From NCBI RefSeq assembly GCF_013085545.1, contig NZ_CP039543.1, positions 1,054,001 to 1,118,000 on the forward strand: DNA of 64,000 bases, in the 5' to 3' direction. The notes below the pieces were generated by a model. That model did not search any database and was not told the origin of the DNA. It was given only the letters and a program-made list of their open reading frames with translations. How positions within the stretch are numbered: the stretch's first letter is position 1; the number at the start of each line of letters is the position of its first letter. The position numbers and the translations under genes are program-made. Shown piece after piece: positions 18,835 to 27,454 of this stretch. This stretch comes from Oceanidesulfovibrio marinus. Its GTDB lineage: Bacteria > Desulfobacterota > Desulfovibrionia > Desulfovibrionales > Desulfovibrionaceae.

Positions 18835-19914
18835 TTAGTCGCCAGCTGCCCGGCGCACCACCTCCGCGGCGATGGACGTAAGCGACATCACCTTGTCCAC
18901 GCCGCCCAGCTTGATGGCTTCCTGCGGCATGCCGAACACGACGCAGCTTGCCTCGTCCTGTGCGATGGTAAAGGCGCCGGCGTCGTGCATCTCCTTCATG
19001 CCGTGCGCGCCGTCATCGCCCATGCCGGTCATGATCACGGCCACGGCGTTTTTGCCGGCATAGCGCGAGCCGGAACGGAACAGCACATCCACAGAGGGAC
19101 GGTGCCGGCTGACCAGCGGCCCGTCCTTGATCTCCACATAGTACCGGGCGCCGCTACGCTTGAGCAGCATGTGCTTGTTGCCCGGCGCGATGAGCGCCTG
19201 GCCGCGGAGCATGCTGTCCCCGTCCGCCGCTTCCTTCACCTTCACGCGGCAGATCTTGTCCAACCTGTTGGCAAAGGCCGCTGTGAACTTCTCCGGCATG
19301 TGCTGCACAATGGCCACGGGGGGGGAATCCGCCGGCAGTGTCTCCAGAAATATGCGCAGGGCCTCGGTCCCGCCTGTGGACGCGCCCACCAGCACGACCT
19401 TCTCCGTGGTCTGGACCATGGCGCGGGAGCGCTTCTCCGGCATGATGGCGTCGGCCGAAAGCTTGGGCTGCGGCGCCCTGGGACGCGCCGTTATCTTCTT
19501 CACGCTCACCTTGGAAGCAGCCTTCACCGCGTCGCAGATGCGGATGCGCGACTCCTCCAGAAAACGCTTGGTGTTCAGCTTCGGCTTCTGGATGATGTCC
19601 ACCGCGCCGAACTCCAGAGCGCGCAGGGTGGTTTCCGCGCCGGACTCCGTAAGCGTTGAGCAAATGACCACCGGGATGGGATGCTGCGACATGATCTTGC
19701 GCAGAAAGGTGACGCCATCCATGCGCGGCATCTCCACATCCAGGGTCAGCACATCCGGAATCACTTCCTCCATTTGCTTGGCCGCGGCAAAGGGATCGGC
19801 CGCCGAGCCCACGACCTCGATCTCGGGGTCTGAGTTGAGCACGTCCGTAAGTGTCTGACGCACCAGAGCCGAATCGTCGACTATGAGCACTTTGATAGAG
19901 TTCTTGTTTCCCAT
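18835..19914 (-). CDS. cheB: Chemotaxis response regulator methylesterase CheB
   Basis: A 359-residue two-domain protein that removes methyl groups from chemoreceptors and deamidates them. The receiver domain has IVDDSALVR at the start and the phosphoacceptor D59 in [12 protein letters not shown]. After a basic linker (about residues 125-160), the methylesterase domain has catalytic Ser in [11 protein letters not shown], His in VQHMPEKFT and Asp in MTGMGDDGA. The start is the ATG at 19914, 14 nt after the cheR stop; the long open frame upstream overlaps cheR and is a shadow. It is the last gene of the chemotaxis operon. Confidence 0.97.
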
Positions 19915-19928
19915 GCATCGTTCCTGAA

Positions 19929-20822
19929 TCAGATACGCTGGTAGATGGTGGGGGCTACCTGCTTCAGCGGCAGGTCCATGCCGGAAAGGCTCTCGGAATG
20001 CCCGATGAACAGAAATCCTCCCGCCGCGAGACACCGGCAGAACTTCTGAAACAGAACCTCCTGCGTGGGCCGATCGAAATAGATGATCACGTTGCGGCAG
20101 AAAATGATGTCCAGCGGCCTCTTGAAGGTAAAGTCCTCCATAAAGTTGAGCCGCCGGAAACGGATGAGCTTGCGCAGCTCCGGCACGATGCGCACCAGGC
20201 GCTTGCTGCGGTCCTTGCTGCGCAGCAGATACTTGGATTTGAGCATGCTGGGCACGGGCAGCACGCGTTCCTCCTCGTAGATGGCCGTCACGGCCTTTTC
20301 CAGAGCCTGGGTGGAGATATCCGTGGCCAGGATGGAGAACGTGAAGCTTGTGCGTGTGCCCGCAAACTCGCTGAGCACCATGGCCAGAGTGTACGGCTCC
20401 ATGCCTGTGGAGCAGCCCGCCGACCACACGGTGAGGGGTCGGGGCCCCAGGCGCGGGGCCAGAAGCGGCAGCACGGTATCCGACAGAAACTCGAAGTGCT
20501 TGGGCTCGCGGAAAAAGTCCGTGGTGTTGGTTGTGACAACGTCGATGAGGTGCGGCAGCTCCCGCTGCATGCCCTCCGAGGAGAACAGGAACTCGCAGTA
20601 CGAGTGGTAGTCTTCGATCTTCAGGTAGCGCAGCCGTTTCTGTAGCCGTGCTTCCAGCATGGTCTTTTTGCTGATGGGCATCTTGATGCCCACTTCGCCA
20701 TAGATGAATTGACTGAAGCGCTCGAAATCTTTGGCCGACATGCCGCCCGGCCGAAACGATTTCGTTTGGACGTCGGCGGTCTTGCCGCGCTCTCCCCTTG
20801 ATTTCGACTTCTGCGTGGTCAC
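19929..20822 (-). CDS. cheR: Chemoreceptor methyltransferase CheR
   Basis: A 297-residue SAM-dependent enzyme that methylates receptor glutamates. The N-terminal helical domain includes [18 protein letters not shown]; the catalytic part has [15 protein letters not shown], the SAM loop [24 protein letters not shown], and [17 protein letters not shown]. The proposed start is the GTG at 20822, with GGGAG about 9 nt upstream; the frame continues to 20897 inside cheA, and an internal ATG at 20741 is also possible. It lies 34 nt after cheA and 14 nt before cheB. Confidence 0.95.
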
Positions 20823-20856
20823 TAAGGCAGGCTCCCTGTCCCGGCGGCCGTAATCG

Positions 20857-23019
20857 CTACTGTTCCCTGTTAACGCACTGCACGAGCTTGGGCACATCCA
20901 GAATCAACGCCATGGTGCCGTCACCCTTGATCGTCGCGCCGGAGATTCCTTCCACATTCCGGTACAATCTGCCAAGGCTTTTGATGACGGTCTGATGCTC
21001 GCCGATGACGGTATCCACCACGATTCCCACGCGGGTTCCATCCACGCCCGCCACCACGATCTGCTCGATGGCCGGCCTGTCCCCCGGCGACTCGAACCAC
21101 TCGCGCAGCCGGATGTAGGGGACGATCTCCCCGCGCAGATTCACGATGCGCTGCTCGGCCTTGGGCCGCACGGCGAGCTGTTGCTCCGAACCGTTGCCGC
21201 TTGCCTGGAGCTTGGCCGCGTCGTCGGCGCGGTTCATCAACTCCACGCACTCTTCCACCATGGTCAGCGGAATGACGAAGTACTCGTCGGCCACGCGGAC
21301 CTGGAGGCCATCGATGATGGCCAGCGTCAGCGGCAGCCGGACCGTGATGACCGTGCCCTTGCCCGGGGCGGACTCCACATCCACGCTGCCGCGCAGGGAC
21401 TCGATGGAGCGTTTGACCACGTCCATGCCCACGCCCCGGCCCGAAACGTTGGTGACCTTCTCCGCCGTGGAGAAGCCCGGCTGGAAGATGAGGGAGTAGC
21501 ACTCCTTATCGGAGAGCTCCGCATCCGCGGAGACGATGCCCCGCTCCACGGCCTTCTGGAAGATGGCCTTGGGCTCCATCCCCTTGCCGTCGTCCTCGAT
21601 GCGGATATGCACCTCGCCGCCGGAGTGCTGCGCCGAGAGCACGATGGTCCCGGCCTCTTCCTTGCCGGCCGCGGTGCGCTTGTCCGGGGTTTCGATGCCG
21701 TGGTCGATGGAGTTGCGCAAGAGATGGACCAGGGGATCGTTGAGCCGCTCGATCACTGTCTTGTCCAGCTCGGTCTCGGCGCCGTGGGTGACGAGCTCGA
21801 TCTTTTTGCCCAGCTCGTCTGAGAGATCGCGCACCAAGCGGCGAAACTTGGAGAAAGTTGTGCCGATGGGAAGCATGCGGATGTTCAGGGTGGAGTCGCG
21901 AAGCTCGTCGGAAAGGCGCTCCAGCTCTTCGGAGAGGGTGGTGAGCAGCGGATCGCGGCGTTCGCTGACCACCTGGCTGATGCGCGCCTGCACGATGACC
22001 AGCTCGCCCACCAGGTCCACGAGCTGATCCAGCTTATCGGCGGCCACGCGGATGGAGGAAGCGGCTTCGGTGACCTCCGGCTTGGTCCGGCCCTTGCGGA
22101 TATCCCGCACGGCCTTCTGCTCGGCCAAGGCCGCTTCGACATTCTGCTTGGAGACCACGCCGGACGAGGTCAGCACCTCGCCGAGTGGCTGGCGCTCCTG
22201 AAGCACGCGCTCCAGGTCCGCCGGCGCAAGATCGCCCCGCTCCACGAGAATCTCGCCCAGCAGCTTGTAGTCGGCCCGGTCGTCGAAGTCACCGTCCTGG
22301 TCGATTGTCTCGATTTTCAGGTCGCAGTCATCCTCCACGAAGATGAAGACGTCGCGGATGGCGTCAAGACCGTGGGTCGTCGTCAGAATCACGTCCCACC
22401 AGGCGTAGCACCGCTCCGGATCGATCTCCTCCAGCTCCGGCACGTTCTCCATGTGCGCATACGTGTGGCATGCCCCGAGCTCGGAAAGCTCCACGATGAG
22501 CGACAACGGGTTGGTGCCGCTGTAGAAGATGCTCTCCTCCGGCCTGAAGCGGATGCGGAAGGTGGCCGGCGTACTCTCTTCCACGTCCTGAGGTTCGGCA
22601 GCGGCAGTCGCCTCGGCATTGTCCTGAGCGATCGAACCAGGAACCAAGGCCCTCAGGCCGACGGTCACGGCGTTGGTGCGCTCCAGGTCCACGGCGTCCC
22701 CTGTGTCGGCGCAGTCCAGCAGGTAGGCGATGGTGTCGCGTGCGGCCAGGGTGAGGTCCAGAAGCTCCTTGGTCACAGCCATCTGGCCGTTGCGCACATG
22801 GTCGAAGACAGTCTCCACATCGTGGGTAAAGGCGGCGATGTCGTCGAAGCCGAACATGGCGCCGGAGCCCTTCACGGTGTGCATGGCGCGGAACACCCGA
22901 TCCACGAGATCATGGTCGTCGGGGTTCTCCTCCAGCTCCAGGAGCGCGGATTCCAGCTCGGTCAGGAGCTCCGTGGCCTCTTCACGGAAGGCTTGTCTGT
23001 TGATGTCGTCTTGCGTCAT
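20857..23019 (-). CDS. cheA: Chemotaxis histidine kinase CheA with an inserted helical module
   Basis: A 720-residue receptor-coupled kinase. P1 (1-110) has phosphorylatable H47 in AMHTVKGSGAMFG. A P2-like region (about 153-238) is followed by an extra module (252-305, LLGEILVERGDLAPADLE then LGEVLTSSGVVSKQNVEAAL) resembling the paired helical repeat at the N-terminus of type II secretion ATPases. P3 dimerisation begins at DKLDQLVDLVGEL. P4 has the N box LLRNSIDHGIE, G1 EDDGKGM and G2 GRGVGMDVV. P5, the CheW-like receptor-coupling domain, ends the protein. It lies between cheY (57 nt) and cheR (34 nt). Confidence 0.97.
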   Translation of the reverse strand: MTQDDINRQAFREEATELLTELESALLELEENPDDHDLVDRVFRAMHTVKGSGAMFGFDDIAAFTHDVETVFDHVRNGQMAVTKELLDLTLAARDTIAYLLDCADTGDAVDLERTNAVTVGLRALVPGSIAQDNAEATAAAEPQDVEESTPATFRIRFRPEESIFYSGTNPLSLIVELSELGACHTYAHMENVPELEEIDPERCYAWWDVILTTTHGLDAIRDVFIFVEDDCDLKIETIDQDGDFDDRADYKLLGEILVERGDLAPADLERVLQERQPLGEVLTSSGVVSKQNVEAALAEQKAVRDIRKGRTKPEVTEAASSIRVAADKLDQLVDLVGELVIVQARISQVVSERRDPLLTTLSEELERLSDELRDSTLNIRMLPIGTTFSKFRRLVRDLSDELGKKIELVTHGAETELDKTVIERLNDPLVHLLRNSIDHGIETPDKRTAAGKEEAGTIVLSAQHSGGEVHIRIEDDGKGMEPKAIFQKAVERGIVSADAELSDKECYSLIFQPGFSTAEKVTNVSGRGVGMDVVKRSIESLRGSVDVESAPGKGTVITVRLPLTLAIIDGLQVRVADEYFVIPLTMVEECVELMNRADDAAKLQASGNGSEQQLAVRPKAEQRIVNLRGEIVPYIRLREWFESPGDRPAIEQIVVAGVDGTRVGIVVDTVIGEHQTVIKSLGRLYRNVEGISGATIKGDGTMALILDVPKLVQCVNREQ

Positions 23020-23076: not shown

Positions 23077-23439
23077 CTATCGCAGCACCTTGTTCACTAC
23101 AGCCAGCAGTTGATCCGGCTTGAACGGCTTGACGATCCAACCTGTGGCCCCGGCGCTCTTGCCCTCCTGCTTCTTGCCTGCCTGGGATTCCGTGGTCAGC
23201 ATGATGACAGGAATAAACTTGTACTGCGCCTTGGCTCGAACGTTCTTGATGAGGGTAATGCCATCCATGTTGGGCATGTTCAGATCGGTAATGATCATGT
23301 CCACCGGGCCGTTCAGTTTATTCAGCGCATCCTGTCCGTCCTGCGCTTCGATGACGTTGAAACCGGCGTTCTTCAGGGTAAAAGCGACCATCTGTCGCAC
23401 GCTGGCCGAGTCATCAACGGTCATTATGGTTTTCGCCAC
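23077..23439 (-). CDS. cheY: Chemotaxis response regulator CheY
   Basis: A 120-residue single receiver domain. DD at 9-10 forms the acidic pocket, D52 in ITDLNMPNMDG is the phosphorylation site, T81/T82 fall in MLTTESQ, and KPFKPDQ holds the conserved Lys. There is no output domain, so it acts by protein binding, probably on the flagellar motor switch. AAGGAG lies about 6 nt before the ATG. It sits between the soluble receptor-like gene and cheA; the 94 nt upstream contains an imperfect hairpin. Confidence 0.96.
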   Translation of the reverse strand: MAKTIMTVDDSASVRQMVAFTLKNAGFNVIEAQDGQDALNKLNGPVDMIITDLNMPNMDGITLIKNVRAKAQYKFIPVIMLTTESQAGKKQEGKSAGATGWIVKPFKPDQLLAVVNKVLR

Positions 23440-23533: not shown

Positions 23534-25354
23534 CTAAAAGAGCTCGACGTCGCCCCATGCCTCCGCGTCATCTGAACATGCGCCTTCCTCGCCGCCGGAA
23601 CCGTCCGAAGAGCAGGAGCCCTCCTTGTTGAAGGCCTGCTGATGAATCAGCCGTTCCGCCTCCATGGTATACCGGGCGAGCATCTTTTCCAATCGTTCTG
23701 GTCGACTTTCGTCCTTGTCCTGAGGCACGATGTCCGTAGCTTCGTCACGCAGGGAGGAAAGCACGACGGCTCCACGCTCCAGGTTCTCGCACACTTCCTT
23801 ATGAAAAGTCATGGAGCTGTTGAAGGACTCGATGGACGTGCCGAGATCCCTGCCCTGCTGCCTTATATTATCGAACACTGAATCAACCTCGTCGTCAATA
23901 CGTCTGAGTCCTGCCAATATCTGCTCGATTCTGGTGACAATATCCGTGACCTGGCTCGTATCCATGAACGCTTCGGCGTTGGATTTCAGATGGGTCGAGG
24001 CCTCGCCGATACGGCCCAGGATATCCGTGACCGATGCGGTCAGCCCACCGGCCTGCTGGGAAAGCTGCTGGATGGAAGAAGCCAGCACGCCCAGGGCCTT
24101 GCCCTTTTCGCCGGTATGCGCTGCCTTGACGCTGGCATTGAGGGAAATGAGTTCGATCTCGGACCCCACTTCCTCGATATCTTCAAGAAAGTGCGTCATT
24201 TCCGTCACGGTATCGGCCACTCGCACCATGATCTGGCCGATGGATTCGCCCTGCTCGGCAAAGTCATCCATGGCCTTCATCACGTCCTTGAGCCCGGCCT
24301 CGATGGCGTCCAGTGTGGAGACGCCACTCTCCGAGGCCGTGATGCTTGAGGCGTTCTGCTCCAGGCTGAAGACGTTTTCGGCAATGGCGGAAAGATTGTT
24401 CTGCAGGGAAACCACCGCCGTGTTGAAGCTCGACGAGGCGTTGATGAGCTGCGAATGCTGCAGGCCGGTAACGTCGCCCACAAACCCCACGAGGTCGCGC
24501 ACTTCGTCTGTCTTGGCATTGCCATGCCACTCTTTTTCGGAGATCAGATCGCGCAGCTCCTGCAGCGATTCCTCCACGTGCTCCACCTGCTGGCGAGTGA
24601 TGTCGTGAAACTGCACCGAGGCCACGGCTTCGCCGATGGAGGAGGCAATCTCGCGGGAAAGCGGCTCCAGGTTGCGGGAAACAACGCCGGATTTGTCCGC
24701 CATCTGCACCAGGGAGTCGAGATTGGTGCGAATGGTGGTCTCGATGGTCTGGCTGGAGGCTGCCTGGTGCTCCCGCATCTCGCCGGTCTGCGACAGGGTG
24801 TCCTCCACCATCTCGGACAGGTCGTTCACCTTCTCCATGATCTGTCCGGAGTACTCCACGATGCGCTTGGCCAGCTTCTCCACATCGTCCGCCAGGGTGG
24901 TGAACCCCCGGCCCTCCGTCCCGAGGCGGGCGGACTCGATGCGCGTAGAGATGCCAAGCATGGACAGTGCCCGGACCACCCGGCGGTACTCGTCGATGGT
25001 CTTGGTCAGCACGTCCACGGTGTCGTGAATCGTGGTCAGCTCCTGCACATTCTGGTCACTGGCCGCCTTGGACCAGAGTGCAGTCATCTTGTCGAGCTCG
25101 ACGTGCAGCTCGTCCCGGAAGGAATCCATGGCCTCGGCCGAGGTCAGGTTGATCAGCGAGCCTGTCTCCTCGGCAAGCTGCGAGGCCTGCAGCGAGTATT
25201 GCTGCAGCGAGCTGCCTAGCTCTAAAAACTCGGGCTCTCGTTCCTGGATGGTGCGAGCAAGCCGGGCGTCCAGCTTCGGCAGCTCGGATTCACACCGCTC
25301 TAAAAACGCCTGCGCGCGTGGAATATCTACTGTAAACGTTTCATTTTCGCTCAT
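23534..25354 (-). CDS. Soluble receptor-like chemotaxis protein with two degenerate tips and a CheZ-like motif
   Basis: A 606-residue, almost wholly alpha-helical coiled-coil protein with no TM segment or sensor domain. Two segments resemble the receptor hairpin tip in degenerate form: residues about 128-165 (GISTRIESARLGTEGRGF) and 402-437 (ISLNASVKAAHTGEKGKAL). Between them, QFHDITRQQ (248-256) places D251 and Q255 with the D-x-x-x-Q spacing of the CheZ phosphatase site. A short Cys/Ser/Gly linker leads to the acidic tail DDAEAWGDVELF, similar in character to CheY-binding C-terminal tails of CheZ. GGAG precedes the ATG, 15 nt after the H-NOX receptor. A role in CheY dephosphorylation or receptor-array scaffolding is inference. 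Confidence 0.8.
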   Translation of the reverse strand: MSENETFTVDIPRAQAFLERCESELPKLDARLARTIQEREPEFLELGSSLQQYSLQASQLAEETGSLINLTSAEAMDSFRDELHVELDKMTALWSKAASDQNVQELTTIHDTVDVLTKTIDEYRRVVRALSMLGISTRIESARLGTEGRGFTTLADDVEKLAKRIVEYSGQIMEKVNDLSEMVEDTLSQTGEMREHQAASSQTIETTIRTNLDSLVQMADKSGVVSRNLEPLSREIASSIGEAVASVQFHDITRQQVEHVEESLQELRDLISEKEWHGNAKTDEVRDLVGFVGDVTGLQHSQLINASSSFNTAVVSLQNNLSAIAENVFSLEQNASSITASESGVSTLDAIEAGLKDVMKAMDDFAEQGESIGQIMVRVADTVTEMTHFLEDIEEVGSEIELISLNASVKAAHTGEKGKALGVLASSIQQLSQQAGGLTASVTDILGRIGEASTHLKSNAEAFMDTSQVTDIVTRIEQILAGLRRIDDEVDSVFDNIRQQGRDLGTSIESFNSSMTFHKEVCENLERGAVVLSSLRDEATDIVPQDKDESRPERLEKMLARYTMEAERLIHQQAFNKEGSCSSDGSGGEEGACSDDAEAWGDVELF

Positions 25355-25369: not shown

Positions 25370-27454
25370 CTAGAGGAATCGAATCTCCGCCCGAGCCTTT
25401 TCCCGGGTGAGGGGCGTAATCTTGACCGAGACGGGCTTGTCGAAGAAGTCCGCAGCGCCCTTGATGATGCCCTCGAAATACTCGAACAGGCCGCGCCCCG
25501 ATGTGTACTCCATCACCAGTGTATCGCCCTTGTCGTCATAGGTGAAGCGCGGGGGTTGGATGCCGGGATAATCCTTGGTCAGCTGCTCGTGCACCCGATC
25601 CATGTCCAGGTACAGCTCCTTCAGGTTCTCATGCTTGAAGTAGCGGCGGTACATTTTCTTGAACTTCGGCACGGTATACTTGCCGAATGCGATGAAGACG
25701 TCTTTCGTGCTCGTATTCGTGGCTTGGCCCACTTCGTGCGCCATCTGCTTGAGCACCTGATCCGGATAGTTGACGCCGGGCAGAAACACGGGGTTGCCCA
25801 GGGCATTCGAAACCTTTGCCGAAATCTTCTCCCCGTAATGTTCGTGGATAAAGTCCTGCATCATCTTGGGCAGCACGCCGCGCATCTGACCTTCGGACTT
25901 CCAGAACTTGGTCTGATCGTCCGCATTGCCGGCCAGGCTGACGGCAAGACCCAGAAGCTCCTGAGCCAGCTTGGTCATGGACTTGGTGGCGTCGGCCGTC
26001 TGGAGCGCGCCCTCCTCGGAATCTCGCGCGATGGTGGCGATTTCCTCCACGGACTGGTTGATCTCGTCGGCCGCTGCTGACTGTTGCTCCGCGGCCGTGG
26101 CGATCTGCGTGATCCGCTCCACCATGTTCTCGATGGCCCCGAGAATGGTCTCCAGGGCCTGGCCGGCGCGATTGGAGAGCTCCGTGGATTGATGCACCTG
26201 CTCCTCGGTGACGCGCATGGATTCCGTGGCCTCGGTGGCCCGCGACTGGATGGTGGATATGGAAGCCTCCACCTCCTTGGTGGCGGCCATGGTCTTCTCG
26301 GCAAGCTTGCGCACCTCGTCGGCCACCACGGCAAAGCCTCTGCCCGCCTCTCCGGCGCGCGCGGCCTCGATGGCCGCGTTCAGGGCCAGCAGGTTCGTCT
26401 GGTCGGCGATGTCGTTAATCACGCCTATGATCTGGCCGATCTGGCTGGACTGCTCACCGAGCTGGTCGAGCACGGTGGAGAGCTTTTCGGTATGGCTGGA
26501 AACGCGGTGGATGCCGTCCACGGCCTGGCCCACGAGCTGGGCGCCCTCACTGGCTGAGCGGCGCGCTCCGTCCGCGGCCTCGGACGTGGCCGATGCGTTT
26601 TGCGCAACCTCCAACACAGTGGCTGCCATCTCCTCCATGGCCGTGGCCACAGACTCGGACTGATCCTTCTGCTGCTGAGCCCCTCGCGCCTGCTCATCGG
26701 CCGAGGCGTAAAGCTGCTCGCCCGCGGCGGCAACGCGCTGGGCCAGGCCGCTGATCTGTGAGCCGATCTCCAGGAGCCGCGCCTGTTGTCCCTGCAGGTC
26801 CTTGCACTCCTGAGCGATGGATTCGGCGTCCGCCAGACTGATGATGAGCATGGGCTCTTGCCCGGTCGTGGGCAGCCAGTCGGCATGGATGATGAGCCGG
26901 AGATGCCGGGCCGGAGTCTGCAGGTTCACCTGCAGGCCATGCGTATCGCCGCGGAGAATGTCCGCAGCGTCATCTCCCAGCACCGAGGTGATGAGCTCGC
27001 CCTGGATGCGCGAAATCGGCTTGTCCACCAGGTCAGCGAAACCGCGGCTGACCAGACGGATGCCCCCTTCCTGATCTACGATGGCCAGCGGAGTTCCGGA
27101 GTCGGTAATGGTCGTCGCCTCCAGGAGAAAACGCTCCTTGCCGGATGCTGTGGCCAGGGAGTTCCGCAGCATCGCCGCCGCGCCATCGAGCGTTTTGGCC
27201 GAGGCCGGAACGGCTTCGGGACCGAGCAGGCCCTCGGTTTCGTCCACAAACCGCCCCACGTTTTTTCGAATATAGCCGAAAACGAAAATTGTGCCGATCA
27301 GACCGACCGCGGCGGCACCCGCCGCAACCCACCAGCCGCTACTACCGCCTCCTGCGACAACGCCGGCAAACATCAAAGCACACAGTGCAAGACCAAGTAC
27401 AAGTATGCATGTGCCAATATCTGCGTATCCTGTTTCACGACCATCCATTTCCAT
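25370..27454 (-). CDS. Chemoreceptor with C-terminal H-NOX haem sensor
   Basis: A 694-residue methyl-accepting protein. Two TM helices (about 14-34 and 41-62) form a hairpin with almost no periplasmic loop. A PAS-like domain (about 110-210) is followed by the signalling domain with tip [20 protein letters not shown] (353-372). From M524 to the end is a haem-binding H-NOX domain: proximal H622 in DRVHEQL, haem-propionate motif YxSxR as YTSGR (650-654), and Y659 at the position of Tyr140 in the T. tengcongensis H-NOX. The same order occurs in the T. tengcongensis receptor Tar4H. It should sense O2 or NO in the cytoplasm. It heads the chemotaxis operon; AGGAG precedes the ATG. Confidence 0.93.

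Follow-up and report, generated by a model that had tools for sequence, protein, structure and literature searches.

The speed of a bacterial response is set by the dephosphorylation of CheY. In CheZ, an aspartate engages CheY and a glutamine positions the water that removes the phosphate, and in E. coli, CheZ is localized at the array by CheA-short. The DXXXQ phosphatase motif of CheZ is preceded by a conserved AXXFQ (PMC7750401). Another protein with a CheZ-like DXXXQ motif, CheT of Sinorhizobium meliloti (Agbekudzi 2024, via PMC12654446), is described as having no significant sequence similarity to known chemotaxis proteins. CheT is reported from alphaproteobacteria, in complex with CheR, and is said to act on one of two CheYs; its likeness to the protein described here is one of description only, namely the CheZ-like DXXXQ. 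Among the papers listed by searches of the open-licence PMC literature, we found none on a CheZ motif in a receptor-like protein.

Here, we describe such a protein, P0002, which is encoded in the window (the whole 64,000-nucleotide stretch of Oceanidesulfovibrio marinus DNA that was analyzed). With CheZ (PF04344), it shares a D-x-x-x-Q motif, mostly found after F-Q or F-H, on a helix alignable with the catalytic helix of CheZ, a linker with a short putative C-terminal docking segment, and a gene beside cheY. Unlike CheZ, its scaffold is a chemoreceptor signaling hairpin, doubled in one chain; the Q is preceded by R, where CheZ has G; the tail is VELF and not a DDVDxLLxxFGF segment; and the protein falls below the Pfam cut-off for CheZ. 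Compared with the MCPs (PF00015), including the soluble Thermotoga maritima protein 3g67, both hairpins are receptor signaling hairpins, but P0002 has no sensor, membrane anchor, or CheR-type pentapeptide, and it carries two hairpins per chain, degenerate tips, and a CheZ motif. What it would have in common with CheC, CheX, and FliY is the proposed activity on CheY-P; their catalytic motif differs from that of P0002, which has no Pfam match to these families at E ≤ 1. From sequence comparison, we judge it fairly likely that P0002 is a CheZ-type CheY-P phosphatase built on a chemoreceptor scaffold. P0002-type proteins, found in many bacteria beside chemotaxis genes, are probably an unrecognized off-switch on a receptor frame.

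Fold and gene neighborhood

The P0002 reading frame starts at an ATG on the minus strand (Table 1). Pfam recognizes two stretches of MCPsignal (74.5 bits; cut-off 34.6), with no other domain over cut-off and no sensor, and no membrane segment was found, the highest 19-residue Kyte-Doolittle mean being 0.88. The AlphaFold2 model (64 relatives as input) is mostly helical over residues 11-579, with a mean pLDDT of 88.9 and values below 50 confined to residues 1-3, 581-599, and 601-606. Pfam, hydropathy, and model together bear out the initial annotation, made from the sequence alone, which had described 606 helical residues without a transmembrane segment or sensor; the two degenerate receptor tips that it proposed were also found.

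The protein is built as a repeat, its two halves matching each other in pairwise profile comparison (probability 98.8%, E 1.1e-16) and each also matching ordinary receptors (E 7.2e-12 and 4.5e-15). Residues 1-277 superpose on the receptor hairpin 3zx6 (268 residues, 5.8 Å, Z 9.3) and residues 277-543 on the receptor hairpin 2ch7 (259 residues, 4.4 Å, Z 9.3). DSSP assigns an unbroken helix through both tips, yet the superposition on receptor hairpins fits. The list of fold matches to the whole model is by itself non-discriminating, since unrelated long-helix proteins reach Z 14.2 and receptors 9.3. When residues 100-285 were modeled separately, receptors filled the first seven places, the best match being the tip of an E. 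coli receptor (1.1 Å over 97 residues, Z 12.1). CheZ, a four-helix bundle of two hairpins, was absent among the fold matches listed for either the whole model or the first hairpin. P0002 consists of two tandem chemoreceptor hairpins in one chain and belongs to the receptor fold family.

Table 1. Features of P0002, genes of its operon, and related small proteins (coordinates of the last two rows are those of loci L262 and L263)
Feature	Residues	Coordinates	Strand	Remarks
P0002, tandem double-hairpin receptor-like protein with CheZ-type motif	606 aa	23534..25354	-	
Hairpin 1 tip, ISTRIESARLG	135-145	24920..24952	-	E and R of receptor consensus EAAR retained
CheZ-type motif, QFHDITRQQVEH	248-259	24578..24613	-	D251, R254, Q255
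Hairpin 2 tip, ELISLNASVKAAHTG	401-415	24110..24154	-	K and H replace consensus E and R
Motif-equivalent site of hairpin 2, TFHKEVC	516-522	23789..23809	-	From repeat alignment
RYTMEAERLIH segment	561-571	23642..23674	-	Conserved; precedes tail linker
Putative C-terminal docking tail, WGDVELF	600-606	23537..23557	-	On low-confidence linker
Receptor with C-terminal H-NOX (HNOB) domain		25370..27454	-	Next gene upstream of P0002; H-NOX 127.7 bits
cheY		23077..23439	-	Next gene downstream of P0002
cheA		20857..23019	-	Hpt, dimerization, ATPase, and CheW domains, MshEN-like segment between
cheR		19929..20897	-	
cheB		18835..19914	-	
Small stand-alone CheZ-like protein with QYQDVLRQKIEKI, L262		2362-2934	+	
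Small stand-alone CheZ-like protein with QYQDVLRQKIEKI, L263		2250-2819	-	

On the minus strand, the genes run in the order H-NOX receptor, P0002, cheY, cheA, cheR, cheB. The H-NOX receptor directly upstream suggests NO or oxygen as an input to the pathway. In the CheA of this operon, residues ~252-303 form an MshEN-like (c-di-GMP-type) segment (36.3 bits, cut-off 38), and an LGxxLxxxG segment is present in 42 of the 63 CheA-like ORFs of related loci (L125-L204), 17 of which have two copies. In Desulfovibrio vulgaris, motility is reported to need cheA3 (DVU2072) (PMC3944678).

A single-protein query of genome contigs with P0002 found no relative, and the related loci come from an alignment scan over the contigs, from whose 357 matches 80 were kept. 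The scan pattern included the motif, so these loci were not counted for motif conservation; their tails and gene order were unselected. By record title, most are Desulfovibrionaceae, relatives of Geobacter, or other former deltaproteobacteria; Nitrospirae, Planctomycetota, Kuenenia, and Bacteroidota are each the title of a single record, and the Bacteroidota one is perhaps misbinned because it is nearly identical to a record titled Deltaproteobacteria. Gene order was counted only in the 77 loci with at least 700 bases downstream: the P0002-family gene is directly followed by cheY in 66, by cheA without an intervening cheY in seven, and by another gene in four. It belongs to a conserved cheY-cheA neighborhood. 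Five of the seven loci without cheY before cheA (L137, L139-L143, L176) are titled Solidesulfovibrio and two Desulfovibrio sp.

Conservation of the motif and candidate function

Motif conservation was assessed in relatives picked by whole-protein similarity, regardless of motif. Such relatives occur in 21 of 59 same-family genomes (E ≤ 1e-20) and, across the phylum, in 36 of 297 genomes (E ≤ 1e-15), the organism's own genome being counted in both. P0002 was aligned with 42 relatives that are 79 to 21% identical to it, and across these 43 sequences Q248, D251, R254, Q255, H259, and F606 are invariant. The QFHDITRQQ stretch with D251 and Q255 lies where the initial annotation had placed it; loss of D or Q among homologues, raised there as counterevidence, was looked for, and both residues are kept in all 43. 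The stretch before D251 is mostly SxxFH (S246 and H250 in 38 sequences each, F249 in 36). In the RYTMxxER segment near the C-terminus, M564 and R568 are found in 43/43 and Y562, T563, and E567 in 42/43.

In the AlphaFold2 model, the motif opens helix 248-273, after a helix break at residue 247. On a helical wheel, the invariant residues of the motif helix fall within ~140 degrees, with most hydrophobic ones opposite, Q256 excepted. At the equivalent site of hairpin 2, the model again has a helix break (515-516), but D and Q are missing, so each chain has one intact D/Q site.

For P0002, we infer catalysis, CheY as the substrate, a location at the array, and a partner for the tail. One chain, with its two tandem hairpins, would correspond to a receptor dimer that lacks both sensor and membrane anchor, and helix 248-273, at the foot of hairpin 1, would present D251 and Q255. 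By analogy with CheZ, D251 would engage CheY, and Q255 would position the water molecule for removal of the phosphate. The receptor tips probably hold P0002 in or beside the CheA/receptor array, where the tethered VELF tail would capture a partner.

The initial annotation had suggested that the protein may be the CheY phosphatase of an operon encoding no CheZ, CheC, or CheX, or else a scaffold keeping CheY at the array. None of the three is among the operon genes identified by Pfam, but a role in filling a phosphatase gap of the organism as a whole is unsupported, since CheZ and CheX are encoded elsewhere in the genome. CheZ lies at C1:1049523-1049999, ~4 kb before the window, and there are two CheX-family matches, the first of which contains a CheC-family match. 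CheZ over cut-off was found in 16 of 34 genomes with a window-type gene and in 66 of 263 others (Fisher p 0.013). The mutual exclusion expected if one protein replaced the other was thus not seen; CheZ is enriched in genomes with a window-type gene. Among 33 genomes with the gene, CheC is present in 19 and CheX in 31 (29 over cut-off). From these counts, a P0002-type protein would usually work beside other phosphatase families, and perhaps it acts for one CheY only, as reported for CheT. One genome with a window-type gene (G182, estimated 100% complete, 110 contigs) has no CheZ, CheC, or CheX match at E ≤ 0.001.

The presence of other phosphatase families in most genomes tested would also suit a catalytically silent array component, that is, a sensorless receptor that helps to organize CheA and CheY while its tail docks a partner, with the D-x-x-R-Q helix as a binding surface for CheY or CheA. 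The clear receptor ancestry, the tips, and the adjacent cheA and cheY fit such a protein as well. However, the positions that are invariant are exactly the two catalytic ones of CheZ, with the same spacing and register, which exceeds what a binding surface needs, and tip 2 has lost the consensus E and R. We regard a silent component as unlikely. For the phosphatase reading of the initial annotation, the invariant D-x-x-x-Q, its register with the CheZ helix, and the cheY-cheA neighborhood are supported, while the gap-filling role and a tail of CheY-binding type are not.

The C-terminal tail

Loss of the tail, likewise raised in the initial annotation as counterevidence, was also looked for and not seen: each of the 43 aligned sequences ends in [VI][ED][LF]F (V/I at 603, E/D at 604, L/F at 605). 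All 80 P0002-family loci end in [VIF][ED][LF]F. A DNA pattern of the tail gave seven matches in 6 of 198 genomes, each ending a window-type or single-hairpin gene (the latter described below); it missed the P0002 gene, in whose tail the N is absent. Extra copies of the tail motif (IELF, LELF, VELF) are present in the linker of L018, L032, and L036.

Tails were also surveyed in 169 receptor-like ORFs of the loci, chosen by tip pattern, with most of the 102 motif-bearing ones coming from motif-selected loci. A VELF-like tail is found in 101 of these 102 ORFs, the exception (L229) ending in IELFS, and in none of the 67 without the motif; motif and tail therefore go together. Of the 101 matching tails, 100 have V or I at residue -4 and one has F; the 43 aligned P0002-family tails have V or I there throughout, with no aromatic residue. 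Among the 67 ORFs without the motif, 37 have a terminal pentapeptide that is aromatic at both -4 and -1. Many receptors have no pentapeptide, which is not required of the MCP family. In the CheZ genes of our alignment, the terminal segments are DVDxLLxxFGF-like, and in length and pattern, the VELF tail is nearer to the xFE[RK][FY] pentapeptides of receptors at the same loci than to the CheZ tail. A canonical CheR pentapeptide was considered for the tail and rejected, as V or I stands at -4 instead of an aromatic residue. The "CheY-binding-type" tail of the initial annotation is not supported: the segment is unlike the CheZ tail and, because of V/I at -4, also unlike the CheR-type pentapeptides. 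Judged by its residues, it looks like a docking peptide distinct from the tails of other receptors, and candidate partners encoded nearby are CheY, CheA, CheR, and CheB.

The pentapeptides of those 37 ORFs resemble the NWETF and GWEEF tails that are described as CheR and CheB binding sites (PMC7698151), and the VELF tail could be a variant of the CheR/CheB/CheD-binding pentapeptides. The main job of P0002 would then be to keep CheR or CheB close to the array. The tail shares its length, its final aromatic residue, and an E with the pentapeptides of same-locus receptors, and the CheZ-like CheT is, as noted, reported in complex with CheR (PMC12654446). Such an adaptation-enzyme hub is nevertheless quite improbable, given the nearly uniform V/I at -4 in motif-bearing ORFs against the aromatic residues of the others, and it leaves the invariant D and Q unexplained.

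A single-hairpin form

Weaker matches of the P0002-family profile led to a second form, consisting of single-hairpin receptors of ~410-460 residues (some open frames are longer) with the same motif and tail. Hydrophobic N-terminal stretches were read by eye, and Pfam recognized no sensor in the four members searched. Thirteen of these genes were found first, among 20 fetched regions, and eight more came from the later search with a CheZ-free profile described below. All of the first 13 proteins contain LALNAxxEAAR and Q[FL]QDxxRQ, and 12 of them Y[TV]M..[QE]R; xxxFQ precedes the motif D in 12, and the tail ends in [VI][EV][LF]F in 12, with one further residue in the thirteenth. In the later eight, three tails are of the VTFF, ITFF, or VTYF kinds, besides the VELF kind. 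D and Q are present in 21/21 proteins and R before Q in 19/21 (S in L268, N in L265), where 13 of the 21 were chosen as family-profile matches and the rest by a motif-bearing profile. A cheY gene lies near the single-hairpin gene in 18 of 21 cases (13/13 in the first set, 5/8 in the later one). A tblastn search of plasmids with the single-hairpin C-terminus gave no match.

Relationship to CheZ

When the single-hairpin form was compared, profile against profile, with 23 CheZ sequences, the probability was 93%, E 3.2e-7, and the score 56.5, and D and Q were in register; the highest score among 40 column shuffles was 20.3. Masking the motif lowered the score to 34.0 and left the register unchanged. 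The alignment spans 121 columns, of which we take only the last ~80 to be truly equivalent, since a hairpin of CheZ is there set against a single receptor helix. Half 1 of the P0002 family scored 33.6 against CheZ (37.3 in the other direction; E 2.8e-4), also with D and Q in register. The 60 shuffles gave at most 19.3, reversed profiles at most 19.4, and a set of 13 ordinary receptors 23.8. Even without D and Q, half 2 reached 24.9, about the same as half 1 with its motif masked (24.8). A score of at least 15 bits with the CheZ profile was reached by 31 of 102 motif-bearing receptor-like ORFs and by none of 67 without the motif.

A CheZ-free profile was built from the C-terminal 140 residues of 13 single-hairpin proteins and run over 297 genomes (E ≤ 1e-4). 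Its 119 matches comprise 57 window-type proteins, 38 Pfam-CheZ genes, including the CheZ of P0002's own genome, 20 single-hairpin proteins, including the 13 from which the profile was built, and four others; none was assigned to an ordinary receptor, with at most 13 candidates scored per genome. One of the four others (L265) is a diverged single-hairpin receptor with LQFEDITNQ. When the motif was masked in this profile, CheZ had a median of 6.1 bits and receptors 4.2, compared with 20.1 and 1.9 unmasked. Because masking nearly abolishes the separation, much of the link to CheZ comes down to about ten residues, which leaves room for convergence. Six of the 23 CheZ sequences, with a divergent HADLVDQ-type motif, score only 4.6-6.6 bits.

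In the reverse search over the 297 genomes, the Pfam CheZ model gave six matches to members of both forms (E 1.5e-4 to 7.4e-4), all below cut-off, and the weak matches also include an ordinary receptor (G154, E 7.9e-4) and two other ORFs. Single-hairpin relatives scored 17.8-19.8 bits in three of four cases, with no match in the fourth, and P0002 itself had no match at E ≤ 1 (gathering cut-off 30.7 bits). E. coli CheZ (1kmi), which the CheZ profile matches at 3.1e-40, is not among the best 60 of 121 or the best 60 of 107 PDB sequence matches of the two family profiles; the matches listed are receptors and coiled coils for one profile and weak, unrelated helical proteins for the other.

Taken at the level of sequence, these comparisons suggest that the phosphatase helix is likely common to CheZ and the receptor forms; common descent is plausible but unproven. 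Alternatively, the motif could have arisen by convergence or serve a structural purpose, capping or packing a helix in this class of receptor and resembling CheZ by chance. This is highly improbable, since the masked single-hairpin profile keeps its register above the shuffles and no ordinary receptor was assigned among the 119 matches, even though most of the profile signal is gone once some ten columns are masked.

A wider reading, which we offer only tentatively, is that CheZ and chemoreceptors are joined by a chain of intermediates: receptors with a hydrophobic N-terminus, canonical tips, and a CheZ helix in cis, tandem soluble duplicates such as P0002, and small stand-alone D-x-x-R-Q proteins. 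The phosphatase would be borne by a receptor inside the array, and a hairpin of this kind would be the ancestor of CheZ. If so, the state of a receptor could directly switch signal termination. If P0002-type proteins are phosphatases, some proteins scored as receptors are signal terminators, the array itself may incorporate signal termination, and ideas about where CheZ came from can be put to the test. No cheZ was found when three Geobacter genomes were surveyed in 2008, and the authors concluded that a CheZ-independent mechanism must operate (PMC2577667). P0002-family members adjoin cheY and cheA in records titled Geobacter, other than the three surveyed species, and in many relatives.

Two of the remaining matches of the CheZ-free profile are the stand-alone proteins of Table 1, of ~190 aa and with no Pfam CheZ match. 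The fourth (L264, 302-1891, minus strand) is a protein of 530 aa with LQAHDIINQ and a C-terminal GNMTFF, possibly a further diverged member. Within frames of ~540-690 codons, some CheZ matches are split in two in an insertion-like manner, for example in G274:C42, G228:C1, and G145:C54.
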